From an uncultured Gammaproteobacteria bacterium (GTDB lineage Bacteria; Pseudomonadota; Gammaproteobacteria; Eutrophobiales; Eutrophobiaceae), in NCBI GenBank assembly GCA_943788815.1, contig CALSRS010000001.1, positions 682,001 to 746,000 on the forward strand: a stretch of 64,000 nt of DNA, in the 5' to 3' direction. The notes beneath the pieces are model-generated. The model saw only the letters and a list, made by a program, of their open reading frames with translations. It was not told where the DNA came from and made no database searches. Both the position numbers and the translations under genes were made by a program. Shown piece by piece: positions 37,620-47,065 of this stretch (position 1 is the first letter of the stretch; each line of letters begins with the position of its first letter).

Positions 37620-38918
37620 TTATTGAGACAATGCCATTTTATAAACGGCAAGCGCCCGTTGTCTGGCATCACGATAGTCGATCATGGGCGGTGGATAATC
37701 AGCTGTATCAAATTCCGGCACCCATTTCTTAATATATTTATGTTCAGGGTCAAACTTCTTAATCTGGGTATCGGGATTGAAGATGCGAAAATACGGCGCG
37801 GCATCACACCCTGAACCGGCACTCCACTGCCAGCCTCCTATATTATTTGCCATCTCATAATCCAGTAGTTTCTCAGCAAACCATTTCTCACCCCATCGCC
37901 AGTCGACAAGTAACAGCTTGCTCAAAAAGTTGGCAGTAATCATTCTGACCCGGTTATGCATATAACCAGTCTCCTTTAACTGGCGCATTCCCGCATCCAC
38001 TATAGGAAAACCGGTTTTACCATTGCACCATTTGTTAAATTCCTTTTTATTATTTCGCCAGGGAATGGCATCGTACTTCTCACGAAATGATTTTGAGGCC
38101 GTACGGGGAAAGTGAGAAAGTATCTGAATAAAAAACTCCCGCCAGATAAGCTGGTTGAGCCAGGTCTCATTCATATCCAATGCGATACTTACGACTGTCC
38201 TGATACTGATTGTTCCAAATCGCAGGTGCGGTCCGATATAGCTGCTAGCATCTTCATGAGGATAGTCACGGGTCCTGTGATAGCGTTGTAATATGTCAGG
38301 CTCAAGACAGGGTTCTTCTACACCATGTTCTACCTGCACAAACCCGATATCATCAAGATTCAGTAAGGCTGCCGGTTTTTGTTTTTTAAACTGGTGACTT
38401 AAATCCTCGCTTGCATAATGTTCATACTGTACCTCAGCTAATCTCTTTTTCCAGGCACGCATATAAGGGGTATATATAATGTATGGGGTATCGTCTTTTT
38501 TCAGAACCTCATTCGACTCAAAGATCACATGGTCCTTGATGAGTTCAAGCCTGACGTTATTTTTTCTCAACAGGGTCTGAACCTGGGCGTCGCGTTTTAC
38601 GGCATAAGGTTCGTAATCCTTACATGCATAGACACAATCAATCTGAAAGTCCTTAAGCAGCTGCCTAAAGATGTCTACCGGTTTACCATGAAACACAAGT
38701 AGCGTCCCGCCTGTACTGTCTATCTCGTTTTTTAAGTACTGGATTTTTTCATAGATAAAACTCACACGACGGTCATTTGTGTCACTGAGTTTATCCAGGA
38801 TATTGGCGTCAAAAATAAAGATGGGGAGCGTTTCGCCTGATTGCAGCGCGGAGAATAACCCCGCATTGTCTTCAAGCCTCAAGTCTCGTCTGAACCAGAA
38901 TATATTCATATTCAACAT
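37620..38918 (-). CDS. phr: deoxyribodipyrimidine photolyase (cryptochrome/photolyase family)
   Basis: 432 residues: N-terminal antenna-binding domain starting NIFWFRRDLRLEDNAGL, and C-terminal FAD-binding domain with LIWREFFIQIL, GKTGFPIVDAGMRQL, MHNRVRMITANFL, DWRWGEKWFA and NNIGGWQWSAGSGCDAAPYFR, all typical of class I cyclobutane pyrimidine dimer photolyases. It uses blue light to split UV-induced dimers. Two starts (38918 and 38909) are possible; neither has a good ribosome site. It is divergent from the two-component system genes, and the TTCAC repeats in the shared region could serve both. Photolyase beside lipid-modifying genes fits a light-stress module. Confidence 0.93.
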   Translation of the reverse strand: MLNMNIFWFRRDLRLEDNAGLFSALQSGETLPIFIFDANILDKLSDTNDRRVSFIYEKIQYLKNEIDSTGGTLLVFHGKPVDIFRQLLKDFQIDCVYACKDYEPYAVKRDAQVQTLLRKNNVRLELIKDHVIFESNEVLKKDDTPYIIYTPYMRAWKKRLAEVQYEHYASEDLSHQFKKQKPAALLNLDDIGFVQVEHGVEEPCLEPDILQRYHRTRDYPHEDASSYIGPHLRFGTISIRTVVSIALDMNETWLNQLIWREFFIQILSHFPRTASKSFREKYDAIPWRNNKKEFNKWCNGKTGFPIVDAGMRQLKETGYMHNRVRMITANFLSKLLLVDWRWGEKWFAEKLLDYEMANNIGGWQWSAGSGCDAAPYFRIFNPDTQIKKFDPEHKYIKKWVPEFDTADYPPPMIDYRDARQRALAVYKMALSQ

Positions 38919-38983: not shown

Positions 38984-39005
38984 TTCACATCAATTTCACG
39001 TAAAC
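38984..39005 (+). promoter_or_regulatory. two 11-bp direct repeats upstream of the response regulator
   Basis: TTCACATCAAT (38984-38994) is followed immediately by TTCACGTAAAC (38995-39005): tandem 11-bp units sharing TTCAC, 41 bases before the regulator start and in the region shared with the photolyase. OmpR/PhoB-type regulators bind such 11-bp direct repeats. The same motif recurs in an array before the desaturase gene. Self-regulation is inferred. Confidence 0.55.
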
Positions 39006-39046
39006 TGTTAAAAAATAAACTTGATATTTTTCTAAGCTTAAAAAAA

Positions 39047-39763
39047 ATGGAATCCGAATTACAACATAACTCATTGCTTCTAATAGAAGATCATCATGAC
39101 ATTGCGGACATGGTATGCGAATACCTGGAAGCTGAAGGCTATGTCATGGATTATGCGGCAGATGGTATTACAGGTTTGCACCTGGCAGTGAGTAATCAAT
39201 ATGACGCCATCATCCTGGATCTTAACCTGCCGGGCATGGATGGTATCAGTCTATTGGAAAATGTCAGGACCCAGGCAAGATCGGATGTCCCGGTATTAAT
39301 CCTGACTGCCCAGGACACATTACAAAACAAAATTGCCGGACTTGATACCGGTGCCGATGATTATCTGGTGAAACCATTTGAGATACGAGAATTATCCGCC
39401 AGAATTCGATCCCTCATCAGGCGTAAAAAGGGGCTCGTGAGTTCCGAGATACTGAAAGTTGGCGACCTTATATTTGATACGGCAACAATGAACGTCACTC
39501 GCAACAGACAAAACCTGAAACTGACGCCGATAGGCATGCAAATATTGAAAATATTAATGAAGGCATCACCCAAGGTAGTTAGTCGACGTTCAATTGAGCG
39601 TGAGATATGGGGTGATATTCTGCCGGACAGTGATACCTTACGTAGTCATATGTATACCTTAAGGAAAGCCATTGATAAGCCATTTGATGTTTCCTTATTA
39701 AACACTGTTCAAAATGCCGGATATAAACTCGTAAAACCAGACGATGAAACGACACGGGATTAA
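39047..39763 (+). CDS. OmpR/PhoB family response regulator
   Basis: 238 residues. The receiver domain has the acidic pair in IEDHHD, phospho-acceptor D58 (ILDLNLPGMDG), the conserved Thr in LTAQD and Lys in DDYLVKPFE. The C-terminal winged helix (about 140-235) contains LTPIGMQILKILMKASPKVVSRRSIEREIWGD and the recognition helix region LRSHMYTLRKAID. It should bind tandem direct repeats as a dimer when phosphorylated. Its end overlaps the histidine kinase start by 20 bases. The TTCAC repeats at its own promoter and before the downstream lipid operon are the likely targets. Confidence 0.95.
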   Translation: MESELQHNSLLLIEDHHDIADMVCEYLEAEGYVMDYAADGITGLHLAVSNQYDAIILDLNLPGMDGISLLENVRTQARSDVPVLILTAQDTLQNKIAGLDTGADDYLVKPFEIRELSARIRSLIRRKKGLVSSEILKVGDLIFDTATMNVTRNRQNLKLTPIGMQILKILMKASPKVVSRRSIEREIWGDILPDSDTLRSHMYTLRKAIDKPFDVSLLNTVQNAGYKLVKPDDETTRD

Positions 39764-41015
39764 CCAACAACTCTGGCAGGCATTTCTTATCCAGGCCGGA
39801 CTTATCAGTTTAGTCGCTATTCTGAGTATATATGCAGCAAGGTATGTACTCAGTGATGTGCTTATAGAACGTGCCCTTACAGAAGAGGCAGATCATTTTT
39901 GGTCATTATTCGAAAGTGACCCATCCATCAGTAGACCCAATACCTATAACCTGACTGGATTTCTATATCCGATAGATGAGATACCAGCGTATATGCGGCC
40001 GTTGAATAACGGTTTTCACCAGATTGAAGTTGATAATGGTGTGCTAACTATGGTGCAAGTCAGCAATCTTGAAGATAAAAAACTGTATCTCGAGTTTGAT
40101 AATGAACAGGTTGGGAATCTTGTACTATTATTTGGGATGTTACCCTTGTCAGTCATACTATTAATCATTTACCTGTCTAGCTGGATTGCCTACCGGTTTT
40201 CATCCCAGGCGGTATCTCCAATCATTCAGCTTGCCAAAGACGTCGAACAACTCGACCCGTCAAGTGAAGAATTCTCAAAAACCATTAAACAAAACCTTAA
40301 TTACAGCCAAAACCGAGAAGTAAGGAGCCTGGCAGATGCGCTGTTTGGGCTAACGGAAAGAATTGCCCAGTTTTTAGAGCGCGAACGAAATTTTACCCGC
40401 GACGCTTCTCATGAACTGCGTAGTCCGATAACAGTGATCAAAATGGCGTCCGAACTATTACTTAATGAGGACGGACTCAATGAAAAATCACGAAAACAGG
40501 TAGAACGTATCCAGAGAAATGCGAATGATATGGAGGAACTAATTGAAACCCTGTTAGTGCTTGCCAGAGAATCAGACCATCTCCTGTCATCTGAGAATAT
40601 TTCTGTAAACGATATTGTTCGAGAAGAAATTGAAAGAGCTGAGAGTCTGCTGAACGATAAAAATATAAATATCACAATAAATGAAAATCAAAAATTGATC
40701 GTTAAAGCCCCGGACAAGGTACTCTCGGTCATGATAGGCAATATCATACGTAATGCTTTTTCCTATACCGATGAAGGTCAAATAGTCATTACTGTCACTA
40801 ATTCCAGCTTGATAGTAGAAGATAGTGGGATAGGAATTCCAGATAATCAAATCGATCGCATATTTACTGCATTTGAAAGAGGAAAACAACGTGGTGGATA
40901 TGGTGTTGGACTCACAATTGTAAAAATGATTTCTGACAGATTTAACTGGCCAATTGATATAGACAGCAAATTAAACAAAGGTACAAAGGTTGAAATTCAA
41001 TTCCAGGATATCTGA
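39744..41015 (+). CDS. membrane sensor histidine kinase
   Basis: 423 residues: TM1 about 12-36, a periplasmic sensor region of about 85 residues (SDVLIERALTEE to EFDNEQVGN), TM2 about 125-150, a HAMP-like linker, then the phospho-acceptor His223 in ASHELRSPI, an N-box (NIIRNAFSYTDEG), G1 (DSGIGIP) and G2 (RGGYGVGLTIVK). It pairs with the response regulator, which it overlaps by 20 bases. The signal is unknown: the short sensor region has no named domain that I recognise. Since it controls lipid and probably photolyase genes, membrane damage, light or reactive oxygen are reasonable guesses. Confidence 0.93.
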   Translation: MKRHGINQQLWQAFLIQAGLISLVAILSIYAARYVLSDVLIERALTEEADHFWSLFESDPSISRPNTYNLTGFLYPIDEIPAYMRPLNNGFHQIEVDNGVLTMVQVSNLEDKKLYLEFDNEQVGNLVLLFGMLPLSVILLIIYLSSWIAYRFSSQAVSPIIQLAKDVEQLDPSSEEFSKTIKQNLNYSQNREVRSLADALFGLTERIAQFLERERNFTRDASHELRSPITVIKMASELLLNEDGLNEKSRKQVERIQRNANDMEELIETLLVLARESDHLLSSENISVNDIVREEIERAESLLNDKNINITINENQKLIVKAPDKVLSVMIGNIIRNAFSYTDEGQIVITVTNSSLIVEDSGIGIPDNQIDRIFTAFERGKQRGGYGVGLTIVKMISDRFNWPIDIDSKLNKGTKVEIQFQDI

Positions 41016-41090
41016 TTCACTATAGATCATAATATTCTTCACATAGTTTTCACATCGACTGCACACATCATTCACCTGACTTTGTATAAG
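41016..41090 (+). promoter_or_regulatory. phased array of 11-bp direct repeats with -10 box before the desaturase operon
   Basis: Units start at 41016 (TTCACTATAGA), 41038 (TTCACATAGTT), 41049 (TTCACATCGAC), 41060 (TGCACACATCA) and 41071 (TTCACCTGACT), all on one 11-bp register (the unit at 41027 does not match). They run up to TATAAG (41085-41090), a -10 box with no -35 consensus; the array covers the -35 position. This is the layout of a PhoB-type activated promoter. The operon start ATG follows at 41125, and the array starts right after the histidine kinase stop codon. Confidence 0.65.
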
Positions 41091-41124
41091 CTGTCGGAAT
41101 GAAAGTACTAACGAGCCAGATTTA

Positions 41125-42075
41125 ATGCAGTCAATTTCAAATAAGAATTCTTTTGCCAGGAAACTTTGGATGTGGGTGAGTAATCATGATGCGACCTACT
41201 CTCATCTACAAACATCTGATCTGGAAGAGATCGATTATATCAGATTGAGTCTGTATATATTGTTCCATGCAAGCATACTGGGAGTTATATATACCGGGCT
41301 TAGTGCTGCTGCAGTTTTGTTTGCACTAACGATGTATGTAATACGTATGTTCTTCATTACCGGCTTTTACCATAGATATTTTTCACACAAGAGTTTTTCC
41401 ACAGGGAGGATATTTCAATTCATTATGGCAGCAGCAGGATGCACAGCCGGGCAACGCGGGCCTCTATGGTGGGCCAGCCATCACCGTCAACATCACATAA
41501 ATTCTGACACGCCAAAAGACCCTCATACTCCTTCAAAAGGATTTATGGAAAGTCACATACTATGGATATTTAAAAAGGAGAACTTCAAGGTTAAGCATGA
41601 AAAAATACGGGACTTAAGCAAGTATCCCGAACTGCTTGTATTGGAAAGGTTACACTGGGTACCATTTTTATTATATGGATATTTCTGTTTTCTAACTGGC
41701 GAATTTCTTAATCGCCACTACCCCCTGTTAGGAACAAATGGTACCCAGTTACTTATTTGGGGATTTTTTATATCTACTACCGTTCTTTATCATGCTACGT
41801 TTACTATCAATTCTCTTGCGCACAGATTTGGTAATAAGCGATTCGCTACTAATGATGACAGTAAAAATAATTTTTTTCTGGCGTTACTGACATTAGGTGA
41901 AGGTTGGCATAACAATCATCACCGATATCCTGTCTCCACTCGCCAGGGCTTTTACTGGTGGGAAATTGATATCAGCTATTTGTTGCTAAAGTTTCTTTCC
42001 TATTTTGGTCTGGTCTCCAGGCTTAGATCAGTCCCTGCCAGCATACTTGCAGAAGGAAAAGGCAAGACGGCATGA
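41125..42075 (+). CDS. acyl-CoA/acyl-lipid desaturase (delta-9 type)
   Basis: 316 residues with four membrane spans. The three histidine boxes of membrane di-iron desaturases are intact: HRYFSH near residue 90, HHRQHH near 118 and HNNHH near 273. Such enzymes insert a cis double bond into acyl chains using oxygen and electrons from a reductase. It is the first gene of a seven-gene operon and overlaps the next gene by 4 bases. It would supply unsaturated chains as substrate for the downstream methyltransferase and redox enzymes. Transcription probably depends on the TTCAC repeats just upstream. Confidence 0.93.
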   Translation: MQSISNKNSFARKLWMWVSNHDATYSHLQTSDLEEIDYIRLSLYILFHASILGVIYTGLSAAAVLFALTMYVIRMFFITGFYHRYFSHKSFSTGRIFQFIMAAAGCTAGQRGPLWWASHHRQHHINSDTPKDPHTPSKGFMESHILWIFKKENFKVKHEKIRDLSKYPELLVLERLHWVPFLLYGYFCFLTGEFLNRHYPLLGTNGTQLLIWGFFISTTVLYHATFTINSLAHRFGNKRFATNDDSKNNFFLALLTLGEGWHNNHHRYPVSTRQGFYWWEIDISYLLLKFLSYFGLVSRLRSVPASILAEGKGKTA

Positions 42076-43322
42076 AGATCGGAATAGTCGGTACAGGTAT
42101 TTCAGGGCTAAGCTGTGCCCATCTGCTACAACATGATCACGATATTACTTTGTTTGAATCTAATAATTACGCAGGAGGTCATACCAATACGATTCAAGTG
42201 AATGACAATGGTAAAAATATAAACGTGGATACTGGATTTATTGTTTATAACAATGAAAATTATCCAAACCTATGCAAGCTGTTTGATTTACTTGATGTGC
42301 AGGGAAGAAATTCTGATATGAGTTTCAGTGTGGTCAATGAAAAAACAGGTCTTGAATATAATGGTTCGGGGTTTAACAAGCTTTTTTGTCAACGACAGAA
42401 CCTGCTCAATCCAGGTTTCTGGAAGATGCTAAGAGATATCTTCAAATTTAATGATAAGGCTCCGGGATTGCTGCTTAATGGTCTGGATGACAAAATGACT
42501 GTTAATGATTTCGTAAAAAAAAATGCTTACAGCAATCAATTTATAAATGAATATCTGATCCCCCTGGGCGCCTCTTTGTGGTCTGCTCCAGCTGGTGAAT
42601 TCCTGCAATATCCAATCCGTTTTGTCATTGAGTTTCTGAATAACCACCGCATGTTGCAAGTAGCTAACAGACCAGCCTGGAAAACTGTTAAAGGCGGATC
42701 AAATACCTATGTAAAGAAAATACTCGATAGTTTCCATGGACAACTGAGACTTAACACTCCCGTTAAGCATGTAACACGGTCTAAGAACAAAATTGACATA
42801 ACACTGGCCAGTGGACAATCAGAAACATTTGACGAAGTCATTCTTGCATCGCATGCAGATCAATGTTTGCAGATGGTACAAAATCCCGGCGGTATAGAAC
42901 GAGGCTTACTTGGTATGTTTCCCTACCAGTACAATGAAGCCATACTTCATTATGATACGGAGATATTACCGTCAAATAATAATGCATGGGCAAGCTGGAA
43001 TTACAGGATCCCATCACAAGAAGCTGACCACGTGACTGTGACTTACAATATGAATATGCTTCAGGGTTTAGATGCCTCCAGGACTTATTGCGTTTCACTT
43101 AACCAGTCATCTGGAATTGCAAATTCTAAAATCATTAAACGAATTCAATATCATCACCCTGTATTTCAACCTGGTCGTGCCGATGCCCAGGCCAGCCATC
43201 ATAGACTCATCAGACATCAACGCATTTCCTATTGTGGAGCGTACTGGGGTTATGGTTTCCATGAAGATGGGATTAAAAGCGCATTGGCAGTTTGTTCTGC
43301 TTATGGCAAGGAGTTAAATTAA
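42072..43322 (+). CDS. FAD-dependent amine-oxidase-like oxidoreductase (lipid cluster)
   Basis: 416 residues with an N-terminal dinucleotide-binding motif (IVGTGISGLSCAHLL, then FESNNYAGGHTNT). It belongs to the flavin amine-oxidase/desaturase-like family typically found next to DUF1365 and CFA-synthase-like genes. In Rhodobacter sphaeroides, genes of this kind are, as I recall, assigned to methylated furan fatty acid synthesis (UfaD-like desaturation). Here it could oxidise or desaturate a methylated acyl chain. Its start overlaps the desaturase stop, and the next gene begins directly after its stop codon, so coupling is tight. Confidence 0.88.
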   Translation: MKIGIVGTGISGLSCAHLLQHDHDITLFESNNYAGGHTNTIQVNDNGKNINVDTGFIVYNNENYPNLCKLFDLLDVQGRNSDMSFSVVNEKTGLEYNGSGFNKLFCQRQNLLNPGFWKMLRDIFKFNDKAPGLLLNGLDDKMTVNDFVKKNAYSNQFINEYLIPLGASLWSAPAGEFLQYPIRFVIEFLNNHRMLQVANRPAWKTVKGGSNTYVKKILDSFHGQLRLNTPVKHVTRSKNKIDITLASGQSETFDEVILASHADQCLQMVQNPGGIERGLLGMFPYQYNEAILHYDTEILPSNNNAWASWNYRIPSQEADHVTVTYNMNMLQGLDASRTYCVSLNQSSGIANSKIIKRIQYHHPVFQPGRADAQASHHRLIRHQRISYCGAYWGYGFHEDGIKSALAVCSAYGKELN

Positions 43323-44093
43323 ATGAATAGCTGTATTTATCACGGCAAGGTTATTCATAGCCGATTCATTCCGCATATCCATATCTTTAATTACAAGCTC
43401 TACATGATGTGCCTGGATTTAAGTGAACTTCCAGATCTATTCAACAAGTTCTCATTATGGTCAGCAGGGAAACCTTCCATCGCCTGGTTCAGACGAAAGG
43501 ATCATTACGGTGATCCGTCCCAGACACTCGATCAGTCGATTAGAGAACTCGTACTTGAATCTACCGGAAAAAACCATACCGGTCCTATCCATCTCATGAC
43601 CCATCTACGATATTTCGGTATCTGTATGAACCCGGTCAGTTTCTATTACTGCTGGGACAAGGACATGCAGGATTTGGAATTTATTGTCGCCGAGGTCCAC
43701 AACACGCCCTGGAATGAAATTCATTGCTACGTCCTCGATTGTGATACAGCAAAAAAATTTAAAATTGGCTACAGCTTCGATTTCCCAAAACGTTTTCACG
43801 TGTCCCCGTTTATGTCTATGCAGCAAGACTACGAATGGTACCTTTCAATTCCTGGCGACAGGCTACATGTCAGCATGGATACTATTGAGCAGGACAAAAA
43901 AATGTTCAAGGCACAAATGCAGCTTGAACGCCTCCCTATAAATTCGAAAAATCTTTCAAAAGTTCTGCTTTCTTATCCACTCATGACCATCAAAGTCATG
44001 ACGGCAATCTATTGGCAGGCACTGAAACTCTGGATTAAAAAAACTCCATTTTTTCCCCATCCAAAATATATGAGCAATGAGATAAAACAATGA
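43323..44093 (+). CDS. DUF1365 family protein (lipid cluster)
   Basis: 256 residues. It begins [20 protein letters not shown] and has [21 protein letters not shown] near residue 100, [17 protein letters not shown] near 120 and [15 protein letters not shown] near 160, all typical of DUF1365. Members almost always stand between the FAD protein and the CFA-like methyltransferase. From memory, a family member (UfaO) is thought to add oxygen in furan fatty acid synthesis, but this should be checked. It overlaps the methyltransferase gene by 4 bases. Confidence 0.9.
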
Positions 44094-45349
44094 AAATAAG
44101 CACAACAACTTACCCAGCAGAAACACTCAAACCTGGATTCATAAACAAGATTGCCAGAAAGTTGGTCCAGCAAAGACTGGTGGATATTCAAGGCGCTATG
44201 ATCGAAATCCAGGATCCCATAGAAACATGGTATGCAGGACACGGTGACAAAGCAGATATCATCATCTCTGTGAAAAACCTGGATTTCTACAGTGAAGTCA
44301 TGTTTTCCGGGAGTAAAGGTGCCGCTGCCGCATATAGAGACGGGATGTGGACCTCGTCCGACCTGGTTAAGTTACTTCGAATCATGACCAGAAATATTGA
44401 CCTGCTAGACGGCTTTGAATCAGGTTCAGCTAAAATTATGAATCTGATTAATTCACTTACTCATAGAGCCAGAAGTAATACCCGCAGTGGGAGCAAAAAA
44501 AATATTCATGCCCACTATGATCTTGGAAATGACATGTTCAAAGTATTCCTGGATCCCACCATGACCTACTCCTGTGGAATTTTCCCTGATAAGAAAGCAA
44601 GCCTGGAGCAAGCCTCTATAGAAAAACTGGATACAATATGTAGAAAATTAAATATAGGTCCTGAAGATCATGTTGTGGAGATTGGTACTGGCTGGGGAAG
44701 TTTTGCCATACATGCCGCCAGCAGATATGGATGCAATGTTACGACAACGACAATTTCACAAGATCAACATGAGCTTGCACAAAGTAGAATTAAAGAGGCC
44801 GGCCTGGAAGATAAAATAACCTTGCTGTTGAGTGATTATCGTGACCTCAATGGTAAATTTGACAAGCTGGTCTCAATAGAAATGATCGAAGCTGTGGGTG
44901 ATGACCATCTCGGTGAATATTTTTCCAAATGCGCATCACTGGTAAAACAGGATGGTCAACTCCTGATACAGGCAATCACTATGCCAGACCGACGTTATGC
45001 TCAATACCTGAAGCGTTCAGACTTTATCCAGCAATTTATATTCCCGGGCAGTTGTGTCCCCTCCCTTACCGCAATGATGAACTATATCAGTGGTCACACA
45101 GACCTGAGAGTTGAAAATATTGAGAACATAGGACCACACTATGCAGATACACTAAATCAGTGGCATGAAAATTTCATGGGCAATACTGATAAAATTCGTT
45201 CCCTGGGTTACAGCAACGAATTTATAAAACTATGGCAGTACTACCTTTGTTACTGCGAAGCAGGTTTCCGAGAAAAATACCTTGGGACATTGCATTTACA
45301 TTTAAGCCGACCTGGATACGACGTCCCCGACATTAAGGACAGTAAATGA
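44090..45349 (+). CDS. cyclopropane-fatty-acid-synthase-like SAM methyltransferase
   Basis: 419 residues. The N-terminal ~130 residues form a lipid-binding domain. Then comes the family motif [22 protein letters not shown] (142-163, with the active-site Cys162) and the SAM site [10 protein letters not shown] (197-206). It has SIEMIEAVG where E. coli Cfa has a VGMFEHVG-like stretch, which places it with the subgroup found in FAD/DUF1365 clusters rather than with standard Cfa. It transfers a methyl or methylene group to the double bond of a phospholipid acyl chain. The product could be a cyclopropane, methyl-branched or furan-precursor chain. Confidence 0.9.
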
Positions 45350-45885
45350 AATTAATTCTACTAAATTTTATTCTGTTCCAAATTGCCTGGTTTATCACAG
45401 TCTATTCGGCATCCCTGGGTCTGGTGTGGTTTGGCCCCGTTTTTAGCATGTGCTGGCTGTACACTCATTTAGTTCTCCATAAAAACAACTGGAAAGTTGA
45501 TCTTCAAATCGTTGTTATCTCAGCCATCATCGGTTTTATACTGGATTCAATGATGGTGTTATCCGGCATATTCAGTTTTTCAGAAAATGCTAGCTTCGGA
45601 TACCCCTCGTCAATATGGATGGTTGCACTATGGGTTAATCTCGCCCTTACACTGAATTATTCCCTCGGGTGGCTTAAACAGAAACTGGGATTAAGTTCAC
45701 TTTTTGCAGCAGTGGGTGGTCCTCTGGCCTACTACGCCGGGAGCAAAATCGGCGCAATTAATTTCGAAAACGATACCCACTCAATTATTGCCTTGTCTGT
45801 CATGTGGGCAATTGCTATGCCATTACTAATTTACATTCTTGAATTATTAACCCTAAGAACCCGTACCGAGGTAATCCCAACATGA
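45346..45885 (+). CDS. DUF2878 family membrane protein (lipid cluster)
   Basis: 179 residues with five or six hydrophobic spans and characteristic stretches FQIAWFITVYSAS, GFILDSMMVLSGIF, WMVALWVNLALTLNYSLGWL and AVGGPLAYYAGSKIGA. The family is regularly found in operons with DUF1365 and CFA-like genes; its biochemical role is unknown. Start and stop overlap both neighbours by 4 bases (ATGA), so it is translated as part of the chain. It might handle lipid transfer or hold the complex in the membrane. Confidence 0.85.
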   Translation: MKLILLNFILFQIAWFITVYSASLGLVWFGPVFSMCWLYTHLVLHKNNWKVDLQIVVISAIIGFILDSMMVLSGIFSFSENASFGYPSSIWMVALWVNLALTLNYSLGWLKQKLGLSSLFAAVGGPLAYYAGSKIGAINFENDTHSIIALSVMWAIAMPLLIYILELLTLRTRTEVIPT

Positions 45886-46676
45886 GTAATTTCGAACTTA
45901 TTCTCTATGCCTTCCTCATGTCTTCACTGGTGATGACGGTGCTATGGTATATACAACTAAAAACCCATAATGCCGGTACAGTCGATGTCGCCTGGTCTTT
46001 TTTAACTCCACTGGTGGGTAGCTGGTTAATCTTGTTTGACACAACAATAGATAATATTCGCCAATATTTAATTATCTTACTAGCAATAATATGGGGCTTC
46101 AGATTAGGGATATATCTATATAACCGGGTCATGAACGAAACCGAAGATGGTCGTTACCGCTACTTCCGTGAATATGCCGGAAACAATGCGCCCTTAGTCA
46201 TGTTTCTTTTTTTCCAGGTGCAGGCAAGCTGGACAGTTTTATTCGCATTACCTTTCTGGGCAGCATCAAAAAACACATCTGCCGACATTGGGATTCTGGA
46301 TATGCTAGGTATTGCTATATGGATAATTGCAATAGGCGGTGAAATATTAAGTGATAAACAACTGAAAAAATTCAAGCAGGATGCATCTAATAAAGGTCAA
46401 GTATGCCAGTCAGGTCTTTGGAAATACAGCCGACACCCGAACTACTTTTTTGAATGGTTACACTGGCTGGCCTATGTATTGATTGGCTTTTACTCATCTT
46501 ACTGGTGGCTGACAGTAACTGGAGTACTGGTAATGTATGTTTTTATCACCCAGATTACCGGAATACCATTTACTGAAAAGCAGTCTGTCCGTAGTAAAGG
46601 AGCGCTCTACAAAGAGTATCAGAAGACTACGAGTAAATTTTTCCCCCTTCCCAGATCAAACCCGGAAAAATCCTGA
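45882..46676 (+). CDS. DUF1295 family (steroid-5-alpha-reductase-like) membrane protein
   Basis: 264 residues with about six to seven membrane spans. The C-terminal part carries the family motif SRHPNYFFEWLHWLAYVLIG near residue 185, shared with 5-alpha-reductases and isoprenylcysteine methyltransferase-like proteins, which suggests an enzyme acting on a lipid with NAD(P)H or SAM. In this operon it may reduce a double bond of the modified acyl chain. It overlaps DUF2878 by 4 bases, and its stop overlaps the next start by one base. Confidence 0.88.
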   Translation: MSNFELILYAFLMSSLVMTVLWYIQLKTHNAGTVDVAWSFLTPLVGSWLILFDTTIDNIRQYLIILLAIIWGFRLGIYLYNRVMNETEDGRYRYFREYAGNNAPLVMFLFFQVQASWTVLFALPFWAASKNTSADIGILDMLGIAIWIIAIGGEILSDKQLKKFKQDASNKGQVCQSGLWKYSRHPNYFFEWLHWLAYVLIGFYSSYWWLTVTGVLVMYVFITQITGIPFTEKQSVRSKGALYKEYQKTTSKFFPLPRSNPEKS

Positions 46677-47065
46677 TGCAGATCAGTCAACCTACTCATA
46701 ATGTTATGGACTCACAAAGAAAGTCGTTCCTGAGTTTCCGTTTACTCGTCGCCCTGGTCTTATCAGGTGTCCTGGTAATGGGCTATTTCCTGCTGCTCGC
46801 GATTGAACATGGAAACCTCGCGGTGGAAGGTCCATTATTACTTGAAATGCCATGGGGTTTTCTATCACTGGTTGATATTTATACCGGCTTAGGCCTTGTT
46901 TCCTGCTGGATAATCTGGCGTGAAAATAACCTGTTTATATCTCTATCCTGGGTAGCATTAATACTGGTACTGGGTAACATGGGCACCTGCATCTATGTAC
47001 TAAAATGCCTGCGTGAATCAAAAGGAAATTCATCTATGTTCTTCATGGGGGAAAAAGTAACATAG
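46676..47065 (+). CDS. small three-span membrane protein, last gene of the lipid operon
   Basis: 129 residues with three hydrophobic spans: about 25-45, 60-82 and 90-110. The stretch PWGFLSLVDIYTGLGLVSCWIIWRE resembles DUF1475/DUF2834-type small membrane proteins, but I am not certain of the family. The start codon overlaps the DUF1295 stop (TGATG), so it belongs to the operon. No function can be given; it is followed by 63 bases before the GFA gene. Confidence 0.7.
   Translation: MQISQPTHNVMDSQRKSFLSFRLLVALVLSGVLVMGYFLLLAIEHGNLAVEGPLLLEMPWGFLSLVDIYTGLGLVSCWIIWRENNLFISLSWVALILVLGNMGTCIYVLKCLRESKGNSSMFFMGEKVT

Follow-up and report, generated by a model that had tools for sequence, protein, structure and literature searches.

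Genes for furan fatty acids, pterins, and photolyases respond to light or singlet oxygen through switches of known kinds—a sigma/anti-sigma pair or LitR-type regulators. The core ChrR-sigmaE regulon includes furan fatty acid genes (PMC6852236), and the pathway itself comprises a DUF1365 protein (UfaO), a SAM methylase (UfaM), and an NAD/FAD-binding protein (UfaD) (PMC7380195). In Pseudomonas (P. putida, P. mendocina), LitR governs the light induction of phrB, UfaM, folX-folE-folM, and cryB (PMC9758184), and in Vibrio cholerae the blue-light response is shared by ChrR and a MerR protein (PMC5241685). Among OmpR-family regulators, ColR of P. putida has footprinted sites such as TTCACACTTTTTTCAC (PMC2689224) and represses some of the promoters that it controls (PMC4074579). 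Our literature search, which covered few subscription papers, found no report of furan fatty acid or photolyase genes under two-component control.

In the window, by which we mean the whole 64-kb stretch of DNA analysed, a response regulator and a sensor kinase lie between a photolyase gene and a lipid operon:

37620 to 38918, minus strand: DNA photolyase, divergent from the regulator gene, with no TTCAC array facing it
39047 to 39763, plus strand: OmpR/PhoB-family response regulator (receiver and Trans_reg_C domains)
39744 to 41015, plus strand: sensor histidine kinase, with a periplasmic domain of about 85 aa flanked by two membrane helices, plus HisKA and HATPase domains
41125 to 42075, plus strand: fatty acid desaturase (PF00487), first gene of the operon
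42072 to 43322, plus strand: FAD-dependent amine-oxidase-like protein (PF01593), UfaD-like, its role assigned by analogy with PMC7380195
43323 to 44093, plus strand: DUF1365 protein (PF07103), UfaO-like
44090 to 45349, plus strand: cyclopropane-synthase-like SAM methyltransferase (PF02353), UfaM-like or Cfa-like
45346 to 47065, plus strand: DUF2878, DUF1295, and DUF1475 membrane proteins (by domain matches), end of the operon

The regulator belongs to the OmpR/PhoB family by its domains (PF00072, E 1.4e-27; PF00486, E 3.5e-16), and its close orthologues all share, without change, the recognition-helix region PDSDTLRSH. Assignment as PhoB was rejected (TIGR02154, 165 bits against a cut-off of 296), as were PmrA/BasR, QseB, and CztR/CopR, all of which scored well under their curated cut-offs. 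The periplasmic domain of the kinase (approximately residues 34-122) contains no Cys and folds, in a predicted model (pLDDT 85), as one long helix and four strands; it matched no Pfam family, no PDB sequence, and no structure at E <= 0.001 (best, 0.15). Searches found no photosensory domain in the kinase and, with the sensor domain also unmatched, light or singlet oxygen is a candidate signal put forward from gene content. UfaM-, UfaD-, and UfaO-type genes occur together downstream at the level of domains (CMAS, FAD amine oxidase, and DUF1365), and given these shared protein classes the operon looks like one of furan-fatty-acid type, with a predicted product. No array faces the photolyase gene, either in the window or in same-genus loci, which counts against the reading that we prefer below.

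The repeats that may connect this regulator with the operon, together with a related site ahead of the regulator gene, are the following:

38984 to 38999, plus strand: two-unit site TTCACATCAATTTCAC ahead of the regulator gene, conserved in orthologous loci
41016 to 41020, plus strand: extra TTCAC in the same register, directly 3' of the kinase stop codon, with no counterpart in orthologues
41038 to 41081, plus strand: four-unit 11-bp operator TTCACATAGTT TTCACATCGAC TGCACACATCA TTCACCTGACT, conserved in orthologous loci and scoring far above random
41087 to 41092, plus strand: -10 hexamer TAAGCT, fitting YANNNT, whose offset of 49-54 relative to the first unit is conserved

The original prediction had described five repeats on a single 11-bp register, and all five are where it placed them (TTCAC at 41016, 41038, 41049, and 41071, and TGCAC at 41060). 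Because the unit at 41016 lacks a counterpart in orthologous promoters, the conserved array consists of the four units TTCAC, TTCAC, TGCAC, and TTCAC that span 41038-41075, the third being degenerate (T..AC) among the aligned sites; the TTCAC at 41016 probably lies outside the operator. An OmpR/PhoB-family operator is expected to have direct repeats spaced by one helical turn (10-11 bp) close to the promoter, and the array shows this arrangement. The pair TTCAC-N6-TTCAC occurs exactly twice in the window, once at the desaturase promoter and once at 38984-38999, and random sequence matched to the window in dinucleotide content yields arrays of the form (0,11,33) about 0.0003 times per 64 kb, both strands counted. 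A weight matrix of 54 columns, trained on other genomes only, with the window held out, scored 40.6 bits at 41038, compared with a best score of 9.6 in 1 Mb of random sequence.

Sites from the window and other genomes (n = 41) were aligned on their first unit and had been picked by TTCAC alone, so the -10 offset was not built in. At offset 49-54 these sites show a fixed YANNNT, with A50 in 33/41 and T54 in 35/41, which makes the -10 element here TAAGCT; the TATAAG originally proposed (41085-41090) lies two bases off. The absence of a -35 consensus was borne out—there is no -35 hexamer, and units 3 and 4 occupy its place, much as PhoB sites cover the -35 position (PMC3348028). The two-unit site at 38984-38999, overlooked earlier, is followed by TAAGCT at 39033-39038, with offset and hexamer identical to those of the desaturase promoter, and is a candidate for autoregulation. 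This -10 hexamer lies 8 nt before the annotated ATG of the regulator (39047), so the regulator may be translated from a leaderless mRNA, or its true start could be further in; transcription beginning almost at the ATG is a point against the reading that we prefer below.

Orthologues of the regulator, 65-86% identical, are encoded in nine related genomes, and in 9/9 a TTCAC array in 11-bp register precedes the desaturase position. All of the orthologous desaturase promoters examined carry at least three TTCAC units in this register (four units in most; a shifted three-unit form in loci L020 and L021), and most of the nine genomes also have the two-unit site ahead of the regulator gene. Loss of TTCAC phasing from orthologous operons, the outcome that the original prediction had named as counting against it, was thus seen in none of the nine.

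A scan of GTDB genomes gave 58 loci, 52 of which (L096-L147) were analysed. Same-strand TTCAC pairs at spacings of 11, 22, and 33 occurred 35, 22, and 17 times in these 52 loci, compared with at most 4 times for any other spacing from 5 to 49, and control words showed no peaks at 11/22/33. Of the loci whose regulator shares at least 51% identity with that of the window, 31/36 had arrays, as did 0/16 with more distant regulators, while shuffling left arrays in 0-1 of the 36; sequences from related species are not independent here, though the arrays precede different genes in different gene orders. Counting against the reading that we prefer below, the strict array criterion was failed by five loci with good regulators (L109, L114, L121, L122, and L123), of which L122 has a relaxed array, and the GC-rich L118 is a doubtful case among the 31 positives. 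In genome G048, likewise, the regulator is 57% identical, no array lies within 1.5 kb of its gene, and ChrR is present. Two loci from MAG records titled Klebsiella pneumoniae (L097, L125) carry a regulator 76% identical to that of the window; they share contigs with genomes placed in the window's genus, so the titles look wrong. In L025 and L123-L127, the regulator-kinase pair is immediately preceded by a DUF4397-like gene, a context found in Microbulbifer and in one more distant relative without an array.

The motif also recurs elsewhere in the genome to which the window belongs (3.23 Mb), with 13 exact TTCAC-N6-TTCAC sites versus 4 for a reversed control, and 83 versus 30 when up to two mismatches to the consensus are allowed. 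Exact sites within coding sequence (L001, L005, L008, L009, L012, and L013) are probably due to chance. Intergenic sites precede the regulator gene, the desaturase operon, a SOUL protein, folX-folE-folM, DUF6134, a TonB receptor, and a MipA/DUF2141 protein. In a set of 58 relatives, regulator-bearing genomes (n = 10) contain 38 sites versus 4 in the control (ninefold), whereas the 48 regulator-less genomes contain 42 versus 30 (1.4-fold; Fisher p = 2.5e-4). DUF1365 was found in 10/10 genomes with the regulator and 8/48 without it, counts that come from mostly draft assemblies.

Arrays ahead of folX-folE were found in four genomes with differing gene orders (in relatives, L104, L154, and L159), and others precede methyltransferase-DUF2878-DUF1295 operons (L108, L119, L120), fasciclin (L117), DUF2878 plus fasciclin (L147), a CRP-like gene (L110), lipocalin (L161), and, in Microbulbifer, DUF4397 proteins (L124, L126). 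Two-unit sites ahead of genes for RND-efflux membrane-fusion proteins in L157, L158, and L160 raise the possibility of a further branch of the regulon. On the minus strand of L105 (2735-3778), an array is followed by a MerR-B12 LitR-like gene, a methyltransferase, DUF2878, and DUF1295; in this lineage, the two-component system may stand above a light regulator. A second four-unit array in the window's own genome (G000, contig C1, 875465-875480, minus strand; locus L167) reads TTTAC, TTCAC, CATAC, TTCAC, with CATAGT at the -10 offset, and the folX array follows it on that strand after about 430 bp. No ORF of at least 45 aa starts within 250 bp past it, and its transcript may be a long leader or a small RNA.

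The gene set marked by arrays overlaps the LitR and ChrR-sigmaE regulons, yet in the ten genomes with a close regulator and arrays, ChrR was above cut-off in 0/10, and no ChrR was found in the window's own genome. Likewise, we found no LitR-type MerR-B12 regulator in nine of these ten genomes, the exception being a weak match in G013, and none at E <= 1e-15 in the window's own genome.

The array, its conservation, the fixed -10 phase, the co-occurrence with one regulator subfamily, and the gene content can be read from the sequences themselves, whereas binding by the regulator, activation rather than repression, and the nature of the signal are inferred. The repeats are likely the docking site of an undescribed sensor-regulator pair that switches on genes protecting membrane and DNA. 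Specifically, 41038-41092 would be an activator-dependent promoter at which the phosphorylated regulator (39047-39763) binds the four TTCAC units head-to-tail, as two dimers on one face of the DNA, with units 3 and 4 covering the place of the absent -35 hexamer. The bound regulator would then recruit RNA polymerase with the housekeeping sigma factor to the YANNNT, 11 nt past the last TTCAC, and would control its own gene via the pair of units at 38984. Across the genome, this operator would mark a regulon made up of the furan-type lipid operon, folX-folE-folM, SOUL, DUF6134, the TonB receptor, and MipA/DUF2141, turned on against photo-oxidative or membrane damage when the kinase senses a periplasmic or membrane signal. 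We hold this reading as a whole—an activator promoter, autoregulation, and a photo-oxidative/membrane-stress regulon under a PhoB-like regulator—with good though not full confidence. The link between the two-component system and the lipid operon that the original prediction had drawn is supported, as a prediction, by the specificity of arrays for loci with this regulator subfamily, by recurrence of the motif ahead of the regulator gene and other operons, and by the match to the half-site and spacing of ColR (PMC2689224).

Other explanations differ in how much of this they would change. It is less likely that the regulator does act through the array but governs a general response to envelope or metal stress, as ColRS does, and not a photo-oxidative one: ColR boxes have this half-site and spacing, metals act through ColR on membrane genes, and genes for RND efflux, TonB, and MipA carry sites too. 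Against this, the sensor domain of the kinase does not conserve the metal-binding ExxE of ColS, and folX-folE-folM, UfaM/UfaO-type genes, SOUL, the LitR-like gene, and fasciclin do not make up a metal-response set. Repression, in which the active regulator shuts the operon off, appears improbable given the lack of a -35 hexamer and the fixed, activator-like phase of the -10 element, as in PhoB-activated promoters, even though the site overlies the -35 position and ColR represses some promoters (PMC4074579).

Binding of the array by some other transcription factor is similarly improbable. Proximity by itself is no proof of binding, and TTCAC-type direct repeats serve more than one member of the family (ColR; Streptomyces PhoP, with GTTCACC), but arrays track the regulator subfamily (31/36 versus 0/16) and also precede the regulator gene, and the window's own genome encodes no other response regulator matching this one at E <= 1e-40. 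Taken together, the near-absence of ChrR and LitR, the co-occurrence of DUF1365 with the regulator, the enrichment of sites in regulator-bearing genomes, and the similar ColR box suggest that it is the adjacent regulator that binds. For functionless repeats arising by chance or from low complexity, with a probability that we consider negligible, the sole argument is the small number of units in any one promoter; conservation, periodicity, and matrix scores all run against it, and shuffles, the held-out matrix, and the comparative data rule out a chance origin.

The system might represent a third, previously undescribed photo-oxidative/furan-lipid circuit, spread through Gammaproteobacteria, in which a periplasm-sensing two-component system and a four-unit operator replace ECF11/ChrR and LitR, and in L105 stand above a LitR-like gene; we regard the arguments for and against this broader proposal as evenly balanced. 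The operator can be searched for by a concrete rule—TTCAC repeated in 11-bp steps, with YANNNT following at offset 49—that ties the regulator to its gene set and to the unknowns DUF6134, DUF2878, DUF1295, SOUL, and DUF4397, and it raises the question of which signal the unclassified periplasmic sensor domain detects.

Compared with described systems, the locus resembles ChrR-sigmaE (ECF11) of Rhodobacter sphaeroides in having UfaM/UfaD/UfaO-type furan-fatty-acid genes in the regulon; that system, however, uses an alternative sigma factor and an anti-sigma factor rather than a two-component system. The LitR/PplR regulon differs in that its MerR-type LitR regulators are tied to LOV photoreceptors. 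With PhoB and the pho box of E. coli, the window shares head-to-tail binding to direct repeats overlapping the -35 position (predicted here), and the PHO box unit of Streptomyces coelicolor PhoP, GTTCACC, contains TTCAC; unlike PhoB, the window's regulator lies far under the PhoB cut-off, and no phosphate genes are among the targets found. Membership of ColRS itself is doubtful: the box TTCAC-N6-TTCAC is present in the window, but the ExxE motif near the end of the periplasmic domain, through which ColS senses metals, is not conserved in the kinase. (An FExRE found in L043 and L026 falls within response regulators and so says nothing about their kinases.) The ColR box also has two units where the window has four, and the target genes differ, whereas the half-site, the 11-bp step, the T-rich spacer, and membrane-related targets are common to both.
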